A stretch of 40,907 nt of DNA from Alphaproteobacteria bacterium (GTDB taxonomy: Bacteria > Pseudomonadota > Alphaproteobacteria > UBA11222): positions 1 through 40,907 of the forward strand of contig JAUSQH010000229.1 in the NCBI GenBank assembly GCA_030652895.1, written 5' to 3'. Numbering within the stretch: position 1 is the stretch's first letter; each line of letters begins with the position of its first letter. Positions 7,403 to 13,308 of this stretch are shown here, piece by piece. The notes under the pieces were generated by a model. It searched no databases and was not told the DNA's origin. It was given only the letters and a program-made list of their open reading frames with translations. The position numbers and the translations under genes are program-made.

Positions 7403-7786
7403 CTATATTTCCGGATTCCAGGCTTCGTAGGCCGCTGTCTTTTTGGCTGTGACGGGCTCGGTCAGTATGCTGCCTCTGGGACGATAGGCATTCGGGGTGC
7501 CTGTTTGATTCGATACATGCGGCTGTTCATATTTTTTGCGCTTATGTGCTGATTCGCCCGGTAATTCGTCCACCGTATGGTGCAGCCAGCCATGCCATTC
7601 CGGCGGAATACGCGAGGCGTCGACGTCACCATTATAAATCACCCAGCGCCGGTCCCGCTCGCGCTCCCGGTAATAAATGTTGCCCTGGGAGTCGGCGCCG
7701 ACTCGTATGCCTTTGCGCCAGGTCCACAGCCGCGTTCCCGCGCTCTGCCCATCCCACCAGGTAAACATCTGCTTGATCAGGCCCAT
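7403..7786 (-). CDS. NADH:ubiquinone oxidoreductase accessory subunit NDUFA12
   Basis: 127 aa. Homologous to the mitochondrial complex I subunit B17.2/NDUFA12, which alphaproteobacteria share: 'FTWWDGQSAGTRLWTWRKGIRVGADSQGNIYYRER' (written here in part), 'RRWVIYNG' and 'SRIPPEWHGWLHH' are characteristic. It is a supernumerary, peripheral-arm subunit that aids complex I assembly and stability. The core nuo genes are elsewhere. It is the first gene of the minus-strand operon, so its promoter lies in 7787-8028. This gene is strong evidence for the alphaproteobacterial origin of the window. Confidence 0.92.
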   Translation of the reverse strand: MGLIKQMFTWWDGQSAGTRLWTWRKGIRVGADSQGNIYYRERERDRRWVIYNGDVDASRIPPEWHGWLHHTVDELPGESAHKRKKYEQPHVSNQTGTPNAYRPRGSILTEPVTAKKTAAYEAWNPEI

Positions 7787-7917
7787 TACGCACCCCTTTT
7801 AGGCAATGACCGGTCCATGGCGCAAATCGCCGTATGGATATGGCCGAATTTGACGCGAATATGACATTCGCTTGGCCCAGCGTCCAGCCCGGTCCCGCGT
7901 CATTATTTTCTCAGGTA

Positions 7918-8028
7918 TTACCTAAAAATATTTTCGTAAAAACGCCACCCTCTTATATTACATGAGATATATATCATAATATGTTGATTTAATTTAATAT
8001 TATTCGGATGAAATAATTCAAGTAGAAG
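7918..8028. other. AT-rich stretch between NDUFA12 and nrdJ
   Basis: This part of the 458-bp divergent intergenic region is strikingly A+T-rich compared with all flanking genes. It contains an AT palindrome GATATATATC (7966-7975) and runs such as TTAATTTAATATTATT. It adjoins two consensus DnaA boxes. It could be an UP element or promoter for NDUFA12 and/or nrdJ, or an easily melted element; I could not pick a convincing -35/-10 pair. No ORF is supported in it. Confidence 0.5.
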
Positions 8029-8037
8029 TTATACACA
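8029..8037 (+). promoter_or_regulatory. DnaA box (TTATACACA)
   Basis: Exact match to the TTATNCACA DnaA box consensus, immediately next to the first NrdR-like site and the AT-rich stretch. DnaA boxes in front of ribonucleotide reductase genes are known from E. coli nrdAB, where DnaA links dNTP supply to replication. Binding here is inferred, not shown. Confidence 0.5.
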
Positions 8038-8146
8038 GCCCACTATCTTGTGGAAATCTAATTTTTATCCACAAAATGTTGTTGCGCATTTTTCACTATC
8101 GCCTAGTCTTGGTGGTCCCTGGGGAAAGGGACACTAGATGTTGTGA
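8038..8146 (+). promoter_or_regulatory. four NrdR-box-like sites at exact 31-bp spacing
   Basis: Four 16-bp segments resemble the NrdR box acaCwAtATaTwGtgt: 8038-8053 (gccCACTATCTTGtgg), 8069-8084 (ccaCAAAATGTTGttg), 8100-8115 (cgcCTAGTCTTGGtgg, weakest) and 8131-8146 (acaCTAGATGTTGtga, best). Each starts exactly 31 bp after the one before, about three helical turns. Pairs of NrdR boxes spaced about 31-32 bp are the known arrangement for this ATP/dATP-sensing repressor of ribonucleotide reductase genes. Their place directly ahead of nrdJ supports NrdR control. The third site is degenerate and may not bind on its own. Confidence 0.6.
8065..8073 (+). promoter_or_regulatory. DnaA box (TTATCCACA)
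   Basis: Exact match to the strongest DnaA box form, 36 bp downstream of the first one and in the same orientation. It overlaps the second NrdR-like site (8069-8084), so DnaA and NrdR could compete. A poorer inverted match (TGTGGAAAT, 2 mismatches) lies at 8051-8059 between the two. Confidence 0.55.
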
Positions 8147-8152
8147 TCATTA

Positions 8153-8183
8153 CAAAAGCGATACAGGTTATCTCAAGCTTTTG
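8153..8183 (+). promoter_or_regulatory. nrdJ 5' leader hairpin
   Basis: CAAAAGC (8153-8159) and GCTTTTG (8177-8183) form a perfect 7-bp stem with a 17-nt loop, just downstream of the last NrdR-like site. Further on, CCCC within 8198-8203 can pair with GGGG (8234-8237) just upstream of the nrdJ ATG at 8245, which would cover the ribosome-binding region. This may be a cis-regulatory leader; the ligand, if any, is unknown. No cobalamin riboswitch core was recognised. Confidence 0.35.
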
Positions 8184-8244
8184 TGCAGGCAACACGGCCC
8201 CCCGATCCAGACCAGTCATAAACGCAGTAAATTGGGGCGAAAAT

Positions 8245-11200
8245 ATGCGCGTGAAGCGTCACTATACGGTCGAAGGCCAATCTCCATACGAAGGCATTGC
8301 GTTTCGCACCACCAATAGCGAAATTCGTAACCCCGATGGTTCCGTTGTATTCTATCTGCAGGGAATCAGCGTCCCCGCAAGCTGGAGCCAGGTCGCGTGT
8401 GACGTTCTGGCGCAAAAATATTTCCGCAAGGCCGGGGTGCCCGCCGAACTTCGCCCCGTCGAGGAAGCGGACGTTCCGGGCTGGCTATGGCGGCGTGCCG
8501 CCGACGACACCGCGCTGGAGCGTATTGACCCCAGCAAACGTTTTGGGCCTGAGATGCAGGCTTGTCAGGTGTTTGACCGGCTGGCCGGCGCGTGGACCTA
8601 CTGGGGGTGGAAAGGCGGCTATTTTGATGCCGAATCGGACGCCCGCGCTTTTTATGATGAACACCGCTATATGCTGGCGAAGCAGATGTGCGCGCCGAAC
8701 AGCCCGCAATGGTTCAACACCGGCCTGCACTGGGCCTATGGCATTGATGGGCCAGCGCAGGGGCATTTCTACGTCGATCATACCACCGGAGAGGTGCACC
8801 GCTCCCGCAGCGCCTATGAGCGTCCCCAACCCCATGCCTGTTTCATCCAGAGCGTCAGTGACGATCTGGTGAACGAAGGCGGCATTATGGACCTGTGGGT
8901 TCGTGAAGCCCGCCTGTTCAAATATGGCTCTGGCACGGGCTCCAACTTCTCCGCATTGCGCGGCGAAAATGAATCGCTTTCCGGGGGTGGCAAGTCCTCC
9001 GGCCTGATGAGCTTTTTGCGCATCGGCGACCGCGCGGCCGGGGCCATCAAGTCGGGTGGCACCACACGGCGCGCCGCCAAGATGGTGATCGTCGATGCGG
9101 ATCACCCGGATATCGAGACATTCATTGACTGGAAAATGCTCGAAGAGCAAAAAGTGGCGGCGCTGGTTTCCGGATCCAAGCTGCTTGATAAACATCTCAA
9201 CGCCATCGTCCGCGCCTGCGTCAATTGCAGCAGCGACGGCGACGAATGCTTTGATGCGAAAAAGAACCCGGCGCTGCGTCAGGAAATCCGCAACGCCCGC
9301 GCCATGATGGTGCCGGAAAATTATATTCAGCGCGCGGTGCAATTTGCCCGTCAGGGACATAAGCGGATCGATTTCCCAACCTTCGACACAGATTGGGATT
9401 CCGAAGCCTATTTGACTGTGTCCGGGCAAAACTCCAATAATTCCGTACGGGTAACGGACGAGTTTCTGAAAGCAGTTGAAGAAGATCAGGAGTGGTCATT
9501 GACCCGCCGCACAGATGGCGTTGTGACCAAAACCCTGCCCGCACGTAAGCTGTGGGAGCGTATTGGCGAGGCTGCATGGGCGTCCGCCGACCCGGGGCTG
9601 CAATTTCACACGACCATCAATGACTGGCACACCTGCCCGGTCAGCGGGCCGATTCGCGCCTCTAATCCGTGCTCGGAATATATGTTTCTGGATGATACGG
9701 CGTGCAATCTCGCCTCGCTCAATCTGATGCAGTTTCAGGATGGCGCCGGCGCGTTTGATGTTGAGGGTTTCTCGCATGCCGCGTCGCTGTGGACCATGGT
9801 GCTGGAAATTTCAGTGATGATGGCGCAGTTCCCGTCCCAGCGCATCGCCGAGCTGTCCTACATCTATCGCACGCTGGGGCTTGGCTTCGCAAATCTTGGC
9901 GGCTTGCTGATGGGTATGGGGCTTGCGTATGACAGCGCCCAGGGGCGCGCGATTGCCGGTGGTATTTCCGCGCTGATGACCGGCGTTTCCTACGAAACTT
10001 CCGCAATGATGGCGCGCGAACTGGGTGCTTTCCCAGGCTATGCGCGCAATGCGGACGCGATGCTGCGGGTTATGCGCAATCATCAGCGGGCAGCGCATGG
10101 CGAAACCGGCGGTTATGAACAACTGCAAACTCTGCCAGTGCCACTGGACGCCGCCAGTTGCCCGGATCAAGCGCTGATCGCCGCCGCACGGCTTGCCTGG
10201 GACCGGGCCGTGACTTTGGGTGAGGCCCATGGCTATCGCAATGCACAGGCCAGCGTTATTGCCCCTACAGGCACGATCGGCCTGGTCATGGATTGCGACA
10301 CGACCGGAATCGAACCGGATTTTGCCCTGGTCAAGTTCAAGAAGCTGGCCGGCGGCGGGTATTTCAAAATTATCAACCAGACGGTGCCGCCCGCATTGCA
10401 GGTGCTTGGCTATAGCCAGCCAGAAATCGACGCCATTATTGATTATGCGGTTGGCCGGGGAACGCTGGATGGTGCGCCGGGCGTCAATCACGATACGCTG
10501 CGTGCTCGCGGCTTTGGTGACGCACAATTGGCCACCGTCGAAGCCGGGTTGGATGCGGCCTTCGAAATCAAGTTCGTCTTCAACAAATGGTCTCTGGGCG
10601 AAGAGTTCTGCACAGACGTTCTGGGCTTCAGCAGGGAACAGCTCGAAGACATGAGCTTCAACATGCTATCGGAACTCGGTTTCACCCACCGTGAAATTGA
10701 GGCGGCCAATCTGCATTGCTGCGGCACCATGACACTGGAAGGCGCACCTGGACTGAAAGACGAACATCTGCCTGTATTTGACTGCGCCAATCCGTGTGGC
10801 CGCATCGGCAAGCGTTATCTGAGCGTCGATAGCCATATTGAGATGATGGCGGCCTGCCAGCCATTCATTTCCGGCGCAATCTCCAAGACCATCAACATGC
10901 CCAATAACGCAACCATCGAGGAATGCACCCGCGCCTATATGAAGTCCTGGCGTCTGGGGATCAAGGCCAACGCCCTGTACCGCGACGGTTCCAAACTGAG
11001 CCAACCGCTGAATGCGCAAATCCTCGACAATGACGCCGACACCGCGCAGGAAACTGCGCAAACCATTATCGAAGCCCCAGCGGCCACGCGCGCGCAACTT
11101 GTCGCCGAGCAACTGGCGGTGCGCACAATGGAACTTGAGAAGAAAAATGTTGAGCGCCGCCGCCTTCCACATCGCCGCAAGGGCTATACACAAAAGGCGA

Positions 11201-11907
11201 CCGTCGGCGGACACAAGGTCTATTTGCGCACTGGTGAATATGAAGATGGCAAACTGGGTGAAATCTTCATCGATATGCACAAGGAAGGCGCTGCCTTCCG
11301 CAGCCTGATGAATAATTACGCCATCGCAATTTCCATTGCTCTGCAATATGGCGTCCCGCTGGAAGAATTTGTCGACGCCTTTACCTTCACCCGTTTTGAG
11401 CCGGCCGGCATGGTGCAGGGGAATGAGGTAATCAAAAGCGCCACATCTATTGTTGATTATGTGTTCCGGGAACTGGCTATCTCCTATCTGGGCCGTGGCG
11501 ATCTGGCGCATGTGGAACCCAATGAATACCGCTTTGACGCCATGGGTACCGGTGCGGAGGAAGTCGCCGGCCAGATGCAAAAGGTTACCAGCACCGGTTT
11601 CGTGCGCAACCGCCTCGTCGTGTTGCCCGGCGGCGCCGACGTGCCGGTTGCCGAACAGGAAGAAGATATCAAGTCCACCCTGGTGGGTGAGATGCGCACC
11701 GGCACAGGCCCCATGGTTAGCGCTGAGAGCTTTGTATTGAGCACAGCCGTAACAAATGGCGGTAGTACGCAAACCAGTCTGCTGATGGAGGCGCGGGTTA
11801 AAGGTTACGAAGGAGAAAGCTGCGGCGAATGCGGTAATTTCACGCTGGTGCGTAACGGCACCTGTATGAAATGCAATACCTGCGGAGCCACGAACGGCTG
11901 TTCATGA
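8245..11907 (+). CDS. nrdJ: adenosylcobalamin-dependent (class II) ribonucleotide reductase
   Basis: 1220 aa, the long form typical of alphaproteobacteria. It reduces ribonucleotides to deoxyribonucleotides using a radical made from coenzyme B12, so it works with or without oxygen. Visible features: '[18 protein letters not shown]', the radical site N-x-C-x-E as Asn474/Cys476/Glu478, and redox cysteines Cys199 and Cys487 (Cys487 lies 11 residues after the radical Cys, as in other class II enzymes). '[20 protein letters not shown]' is also present. The C-terminus is cysteine-rich: C1193, C1196, C1207, C1210, C1213, C1219, probably the thiol relay or a zinc-ribbon-like tail. ATG 8245 is chosen because homology starts there; the frame is open back to a GTG at 8143 inside an NrdR-like site. 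Monocistronic, with its own terminator. Confidence 0.95.
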
Positions 11908-11931: not shown

Positions 11932-12028
11932 AGGGAAACCGCCAGTTAGTTGCGTTGCGTACCTCCGAATAGTCATCGGAGTCTTCCCTGCTGAAAACTG
12001 GGGCCGTGCGTGCACGGCCCCTTTTTTT
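11932..12028 (+). ncRNA. candidate structured RNA ending in an intrinsic terminator
   Basis: Between nrdJ and the acyltransferase gene, AGGGAA (11932-11937) pairs with TTCCCT (11984-11989). This encloses CTCCGA/TCGGAG (11963-11968/11976-11981, 7-nt loop) and a 25-nt single-stranded-looking segment with a GTTGC repeat. The terminator hairpin follows. A closed stem, an inner hairpin and a terminator form the layout of many small RNAs and riboswitch-type leaders. It could be a 3'-UTR-derived sRNA of nrdJ, an independent sRNA, or a transcription attenuator for the gene at 12076. The inner stem contains CCTCC, a possible anti-Shine-Dalgarno sequence. No known family was recognised. Confidence 0.35.
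12000..12028 (+). terminator. strong rho-independent terminator after nrdJ
   Basis: GGGGCCGTGC (12000-12009) and GCACGGCCCC (12012-12021) form a GC-rich 10-bp inverted repeat, with at least 8 bp usable around a realistic loop, followed directly by seven T residues (12022-12028). It should end nrdJ transcription. It lies 47 nt upstream of the next start codon, so that gene needs its own promoter or readthrough. Confidence 0.85.
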
Positions 12029-12075
12029 GTTCCCCGATTAACCCGGTATTCATCTTGTTCATCCATTCTTTACCT

Positions 12076-13308
12076 ATGCAGGATGGAGCATCACAAAATT
12101 CCGGGTTACAGGTGTTCGTCGCGCGCGATGAGGAAGAGCGCCGACGTATTTATCGTTTCCGTTATCGCGTGAAGGTAGAGCAATTGGGCGCCGATCCGCC
12201 TTATGCGGATCATCGCGCCAAGCTTCTATGTGATCCGCTGGATGCCCCGGCCAGACAGATATATGTCGCCCAATCCAAAGGCCATGAACTGGTCGCCGCG
12301 GCGCGCCTGAATACCGGTCTGGCCGACAACAACCTCTCCGAAATAACCCGGCTTGAGGGATTCGGTTCCTTTCGCGAGTTCGGCGTCGATTCCCTGTCAC
12401 TTAGCGGTCAACTGGTGATCGCTCCAAAATGGACCAGCAGCAAAGCGGCGTCATTGGCGCTCAGCGCCATATATAAACTTGCCCGCCAGGGCGGCAGCCG
12501 TTTCGATTTCAGTCAATGCTCGCCCGCGCTGGTACCTCTGTATCAGCGGCTAGGTTATCGCCGGTTTCGCGAGAACTTCATGGATGACGCGCTTGGGTAT
12601 CAGGTGCCGCTGGTAATGGTGACGGAAGATTACCAGCATCTTGCGCGGGTTAATTCACCTCTGATCAACATCGCGCGCAGTATGAACAACCCGCCAGAGA
12701 CGGGTAACTGGTTCGCACGCGGCTTTCCCGAATACGCGCTTGCACCAGTCGAAGTCGCGATGGAGGATGACGAATTCTGGCATTTCCTGGCCAGGAAGTT
12801 AAATCAACTACCCACGGCGGGCATCCCTTTGTTGGAGGGGTTGAACTACACGGAAGCTCTTTCCTTTATCCGCGCTGGATCGGTGCTGCATTGCCGCAAA
12901 AATACGCCCATAGTGAAGGCAGGCCAGATGGGCCGCGAAATGTTCGTTATTTTATCAGGTGACGTAAAAGTTCTGGCGGGACCGGACAAAGCCGAAGTAG
13001 CGCACCTTAAACGCGGTGACATATTTGGCGAACTGGCCTATCTGTCAGAAGTGCCGCGTACCGCTGATGTGGTGACCACGGATGATGTGGAACTGCTGGT
13101 GCTGAGCCAGGAGATCGTGCGCCGCATTATGGAAAAGATGCCCGCCATCGCCGCGCGTGTGCTGTTTAACCTGTCGCTTATCCTGTGTGCGCGCCTTGGC
13201 CAATCAACACGCGACCTGGTGACCGCCACGTCATTGCCCGTTGCGCCTGACGAGGATGAGCGGGCAACTCTGCCAGACGGCATCGCCAGCGGCGCCAGTC
13301 AGCGCTGA
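12076..13308 (+). CDS. N-acyl amino acid synthase/autoinducer-synthase-like acyltransferase fused to a cyclic-nucleotide-binding domain
   Basis: 410 aa, two domains. Residues about 12-190 have the GNAT-like fold pattern of FeeM/LuxI-type acyltransferases: 'RIYRFRYRVKVEQLG' (Arg/aromatic helix), acidic 'DPPYADH', 'AAARL', then 'SLSGQLVIAPKWTSSKAASL' with the acyl-donor-binding region. Residues about 265-375 form a CNB domain with 'GREMFVILSGDVKVL' and a phosphate-binding cassette FGELAYLSEVPRTADV (317-332), including the Arg that contacts the cyclic phosphate, so binding looks intact. No HTH is present, so this is not a Crp-type regulator. It is probably an acyltransferase controlled by cAMP or another nucleotide; substrate unknown. 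ATG 12076 is used because earlier in-frame codons fall in the terminator. Transcribed alone. Confidence 0.72.
   Translation: MQDGASQNSGLQVFVARDEEERRRIYRFRYRVKVEQLGADPPYADHRAKLLCDPLDAPARQIYVAQSKGHELVAAARLNTGLADNNLSEITRLEGFGSFREFGVDSLSLSGQLVIAPKWTSSKAASLALSAIYKLARQGGSRFDFSQCSPALVPLYQRLGYRRFRENFMDDALGYQVPLVMVTEDYQHLARVNSPLINIARSMNNPPETGNWFARGFPEYALAPVEVAMEDDEFWHFLARKLNQLPTAGIPLLEGLNYTEALSFIRAGSVLHCRKNTPIVKAGQMGREMFVILSGDVKVLAGPDKAEVAHLKRGDIFGELAYLSEVPRTADVVTTDDVELLVLSQEIVRRIMEKMPAIAARVLFNLSLILCARLGQSTRDLVTATSLPVAPDEDERATLPDGIASGASQR

Follow-up and report, generated by a model that had tools for sequence, protein, structure and literature searches.

The promoter of nrdJ, a vitamin B12-dependent class II ribonucleotide reductase (RNR) gene, was found to contain a row of NrdR boxes in a 31-bp register, and this row is probably a double NrdR operator, in which one NrdR tetramer would lie over the -35 region and another over the -10 element and the transcription start. 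The promoter is located in an alphaproteobacterial contig of 40,907 nucleotides, which was analysed as a whole and is called the window here. The row contains two strong boxes (8069 and 8131), one moderate box (8038) and one degenerate site (8100). The point of interest is that such double operators recur in the class and that the operator is coupled to DnaA boxes; neither four operators of equal standing nor the larger NrdR oligomer suggested in a preliminary description of this DNA is supported. Control of nrdJ by NrdR, which was part of that description, is very likely and is well supported by the predicted boxes, by their conservation and by the presence of NrdR in the genome.

NrdR boxes of the nrdJ promoter

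The positions 8038, 8069, 8100 and 8131 and their 31-bp register before nrdJ, as given in the preliminary description, were found to be exact, and the whole row lies upstream of the ATG start codon at 8245. The sites read GCCCACTATCTTGTGG (8038-8053), CCACAAAATGTTGTTG (8069-8084), CGCCTAGTCTTGGTGG (8100-8115), and ACACTAGATGTTGTGA (8131-8146). Every site had been described as C-W-A...T-T-G-T-G; this pattern was present in full at 8131 and was incomplete at 8038, 8069, and 8100. Site 8069 contained the full core and ended with TTGTT, site 8038 contained C instead of A at the 6th position, and site 8100 was devoid of the central AT and contained G at the 12th position. The 16-bp palindrome of an NrdR operator, with invariant C4 and G13 and an AT centre, was found at 8069 and 8131; 8038 was moderate in this respect and 8100 failed as a full box. 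The two boxes of an NrdR operator stand an integer number of turns apart with a spacer of 15–16 bp, and the spacer of 8038/8069 was 15 bp. The spacer of 8100/8131 was also 15 bp, with the degenerate 8100 as one member, so that the upstream pair is canonical and the downstream pair begins with a degenerate site in which C4 and G13 are retained. The row is upstream of the RNR operon and overlaps the predicted promoter.

A position weight matrix for NrdR was trained on 105 other alphaproteobacterial nrdJ promoters, with the genus and family of the window left out, and was used to scan the 40,892 positions of the 40.9 kb window (Table 1). Three of the sites were placed among the six best positions; the third site, already called degenerate in the preliminary description, was found far down the ranking. 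The best score of the four-rung ladder was 43.5, whereas the maximum in 60 dinucleotide shuffles was 9.4. Boxes 1, 2, and 4 are well beyond chance, and site 3 alone, with a chance of about 1% at its prespecified position, is only suggestive. Of the four operators claimed, three clear boxes in a multi-box array therefore stood, and site 3 is degenerate and doubles as the predicted -10 element.

Table 1. Predicted features of the nrdJ promoter region; bits and ranks are from the matrix scan of the window
Feature	Position	Strand	Remarks
DnaA box TTATACACA, directly abuts NrdR box 1	8029..8037	+	exact TTATNCACA; equally placed in both congeners, where it reads TTATRCACA
NrdR box 1 (moderate), paired with box 2 across a 15-bp spacer	8038..8053		8.3 bits, rank 6
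DnaA box TTATCCACA, shares five bases with the left half of NrdR box 2	8065..8073	+	exact consensus; invariant in three congeners
NrdR box 2 (strong), right edge overlaps the predicted -35	8069..8084		17.3 bits, rank 2
Predicted -35 element TTGCGC, 16-bp spacer to the -10	8082..8087	+	TTGCGC-N16-TAGTCT also in sister-genus promoter L005
Site 3, degenerate NrdR-like, invariant C4 and G13, overlaps the predicted -10	8100..8115		-0.8 bits, rank 194
Predicted -10 element TAGTCT	8104..8109	+	kept in the window, L004, L005 and L006; TACTCT in L003
NrdR box 4 (strongest), just 3' of the predicted transcription start	8131..8146		18.6 bits, rank 1; perfect 14-mer core, present twice in the genome
nrdJ, vitamin B12-dependent class II ribonucleotide reductase	8245..11907	+	NF005736, 2174 bits against a cut-off of 1737, residues 1-1220

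The matrix scan covered the window, and pattern searches for the 14-bp core covered the whole genome (3.47 Mb). The perfect core CACWANATNTWGTG was found at only two places in the genome, at 8132 and upstream of glyA-nrdR. When one mismatch was allowed 15 sites were found, two of which (8070 and 8132) lie 62 bp apart in the nrdJ promoter. As boxes 1 and 3 both deviate from the consensus, no perfect canonical NrdR pair was found in the genome. An extra box at 8171 (9.0 bits), located 40 bp past box 4 as its possible four-turn partner, was not counted; its surroundings were 0–15% identical in the congeners.

Predicted binding of NrdR to the row

The genome was found to encode its own NrdR (TIGR00244, 168 bits), which contained the DNA-contacting residues D15, R17, and RRRR (R26-29) and aligned without gaps to its E. 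coli counterpart up to and including the domain linker. These residues contact conserved G-C pairs and the backbone (PMC9110341). The DNA-binding form of NrdR is a dATP/ATP-loaded tetramer on two boxes about three turns apart; the dATP/ATP-loaded protein is an octamer in solution and must dissociate to bind DNA (PMC9110341). The E. coli NrdR needs two boxes, and its affinity was lowered 530–1000-fold when one of them was mutated (PMC12051234). Two tetramers are therefore a simpler arrangement than one larger assembly.

From the sequence, we infer that boxes 1 and 2, a canonical pair with 31 bp from centre to centre, would be bound by one dATP/ATP-loaded tetramer over the -35 element, and that box 4 and the degenerate site 3 would form the second pair, with another tetramer over the -10 element and the transcription start. 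At high dATP either tetramer would block RNA polymerase, and both together would give tighter repression. With site 3 at -0.8 bits, binding at the downstream pair may be weak or absent, and box 4 may be partnerless.

Conservation of the promoter and nature of site 3

The promoter was compared with those of the two congeners that have an intact promoter (L003 and L004) and of two members of the sister genus (L005 and L006). The three-way identity was 50–85% across 8011-8150, whereas it was 0–30% in both flanks. As the preliminary description would lead one to expect, the 31/62-bp register of sites 1, 2, and 4 was exact in both congeners. Box 1 was found at the same offset with 8.2 and 8.4 bits, and box 2 scored 17.5 bits in both, with variation at the free position 10 alone. 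The substitutions in boxes 2 and 4 were mostly at the free positions of the NrdR consensus. In the sister genus, box 4 and a site-3-like element were kept and boxes 1 and 2 were absent.

A consensus sigma-70 scan of the nrdJ promoter gave no match, so the predicted -35 and -10 elements rest on conservation. CTTGCG was found at the corresponding -35 place in other ladder promoters. In ladder promoters selected on the outer boxes alone, a -10-like hexamer (CATACT, TACAGT, or TAGTCT) was often found where site 3 lies. Both C4 and G13 were present at site 3 in 13 of the 18 ladder cases other than the window's own, against 13.8% of the -10-like control windows (p = 3e-8, a somewhat optimistic value as a few of the rows are from related genomes). 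As C4 and G13 are kept beyond what is expected of a -10-like sequence, site 3 seems to be a trade-off between the needs of the promoter and those of a weak NrdR box.

These observations bear on an alternative explanation, in which the pair 8038/8069 alone works as the operator, box 4 is an auxiliary or relic single box, and site 3 is simply the -10 element. This pair is the only one here with both canonical spacing and two clear boxes, and the two-box requirement of NrdR (PMC12051234) and the low score of site 3 are consistent with such a reading. However, no position in the window matched the matrix better than box 4, which also holds one of the two perfect cores in the genome; box 4 was retained in each of the five family members compared, two of which are without boxes 1 and 2, and site 3 keeps C4 and G13 more often than -10-like sequences do. 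We therefore consider the single-pair explanation unlikely.

NrdR boxes in the nrdJ promoters of Alphaproteobacteria

The promoter collection contained 231 alphaproteobacterial nrdJ promoters, 228 of them distinct. In the 121 promoters outside the matrix training, 59 box pairs were found at 31–33 bp, against about one per off-peak lag. At least three predicted boxes within 130 bp were found in 66 of the 231 promoters and at least four in 20, whereas three boxes were found in none of the 2,300 dinucleotide shuffles. Most of the four-box arrays were composed of two 31-bp pairs with a variable distance between them, so that a single helix face is no general rule. Two 31-bp pairs were found in 35 promoters at a lenient threshold, which was chosen low enough to admit the window's own site of -0.8 bits, and in 14 of them all four boxes scored 6.5 bits or more. 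The inter-pair distances clustered near 50, 62–65, and 76 bp. Helical phasing between the pairs of the 35 promoters was not significant (Rayleigh p = 0.10; 0.51 on distinct distances).

The preliminary description had proposed that four boxes on one face of the helix are bound by one larger cooperative NrdR assembly, with a steeper switch in response to the dATP/ATP ratio. The exact register of 3 x 31 bp in the genus, where the inter-pair helical phase is conserved, would suit such an assembly, as would the octamer in solution (PMC9110341). The exact register of the ladder also recurs in other alphaproteobacteria, and pairs at 93–95 bp were found in unrelated promoters, with 10 in the first promoter set against 0.25 per lag. 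In the second set the excess was weak (5 against about 3), and the equal-spaced ladder is therefore one recurrent variant and no class-wide rule. Against the larger assembly stand the dissociation of the octamer that DNA binding requires (PMC9110341), the weakness of site 3 and the variable inter-pair spacing, with its lack of significant phasing across the 35 promoters. As a general principle the larger oligomer is not supported, and for this promoter it is quite improbable; two separate tetramers are preferred.

Other layouts were also observed upstream of nrdJ. A four-box layout of 31-19-31, in which the two pairs almost touch without being in helical phase, recurred in L017, L156, L125, L141, and others, and a layout of 31-45-31 recurred in another group of nrdJ promoters. 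In the L220 promoter, five NrdR boxes were predicted in a stretch of about 130 bp.

DnaA boxes

Two perfect DnaA boxes, TTATACACA (8029-8037) and TTATCCACA (8065-8073), were overlooked in the preliminary description and are the only matches to TTATNCACA in the 40.9 kb window. Across the class, the nrdJ promoters contained 40 matches to TTATNCACA, whereas shuffles gave an expectation of 2.25, and the density was 0.281 per kb in nrdJ promoters against 0.006 per kb in the neighbouring DNA. The boxes are thus both conserved and enriched, as is expected in a DnaA-regulated promoter. DnaA is known to regulate nrdAB in E. coli and has been proposed to do so in Caulobacter (PMC8203912). The overlap of the DnaA and NrdR boxes suggests that the two proteins compete at the upstream pair: DnaA, bound beside box 1 and across part of box 2, would compete with NrdR there, and the output of nrdJ would thereby be coupled to the nucleotide pool and to replication initiation.

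It might also be argued that 8029-8073 is controlled mainly by DnaA and that box 1 resembles an NrdR box only through the shared CCACA/TGTGG motif. The two perfect DnaA boxes and the role of DnaA at nrdAB (PMC8203912) fit this explanation. However, box 1 of the congeners keeps the NrdR half-site TATSTTGTGG and not the flanks that a reversed DnaA box would need, and box 2 varies solely at the NrdR-free position 10, which makes control mainly by DnaA very improbable. A broader and rather speculative reading treats the 31-bp ladder as a common lattice, where NrdR tetramers could occupy alternative registers (1+2, 2+3, or 3+4) and DnaA would compete for 1+2. The nrdJ switch would then read the nucleotide pool and the replication state at the same bases, and combined control by NrdR and DnaA would be widespread at alphaproteobacterial nrdJ.

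Comparison with known systems

NrdR is usually viewed as a two-box, one-tetramer repressor. The nrdRJ operator of Streptomyces coelicolor (PMC9110341, structure 7P3F) is likewise a class II RNR promoter, with a palindromic box pair about three turns apart that overlaps the promoter; it has one pair and one tetramer, whereas three clear boxes, a degenerate fourth, and DnaA boxes were found here. Four NrdR boxes in two pairs with 15–16 bp spacers, the proximal box overlapping the RNA polymerase site, are present before nrdAB of Listeria monocytogenes (PMC12051234), which is therefore a published precedent for a double operator. The Listeria operon encodes a class I RNR of Bacillota, whereas in the window a single 31-bp register holds all four sites, site 3 is merged with the predicted -10 element and DnaA boxes overlap. 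The nrdHEF operon of Streptococcus pneumoniae (PMC12051234) is also preceded by more than two NrdR boxes, but its three boxes have spacers of 24–26 bp and its box 0 is unconserved and poorly bound. DnaA and NrdR sites occur together at the class Ia nrdAB promoter of E. coli (PMC8203912, PMC12176259), whereas here the RNR is of class II and a DnaA box physically overlaps an NrdR box.

The published genome-wide survey (PMC12051234, section 4.6) looked solely for box pairs at most 50 nt apart. Its search pattern gave no match in the nrdJ promoter of the window, and double NrdR operators are therefore likely undercounted. Our search of the literature, largely of non-subscription sources, found nothing relevant on NrdR box arrays in Alphaproteobacteria, and a prior mention of more than two boxes is possible (Rodionov and Gelfand 2005). 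The class-wide recurrence of double operators, in which some boxes coincide with the -10 element, suggests graded or redundant repression, and their position next to DnaA boxes suggests that dNTP supply is directly linked to the initiation of replication.

Other genes and neighbouring regions

An Rfam search of 7700-8350 with E values up to 1 gave zero matches, and the B12-dependent nrdJ is therefore not preceded by any known cobalamin riboswitch. No strong NrdR box was found upstream of a second RNR-like large subunit gene of the same genome (778 aa, L112:4393-6729). A strong single NrdR box was found before the glyA-nrdR operon of the genome (L113:5000-5015, 17.2 bits) and in the congener L256 (18.2 bits), and weaker boxes were present before glyA-nrdR in several other alphaproteobacteria. 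NrdR autoregulation is reported never to have been found in Proteobacteria (PMC5343134), and the box before glyA-nrdR hints at it. The intergenic region upstream of nrdJ is shared with a divergent gene on the minus strand (7403-7786), which encodes an NDUFA12-like complex I subunit. The gene 3' of nrdJ (12010-13308, plus strand) contained an acyltransferase-like N-terminus and a cyclic-nucleotide-binding-like C-terminus, with weak family matches only.
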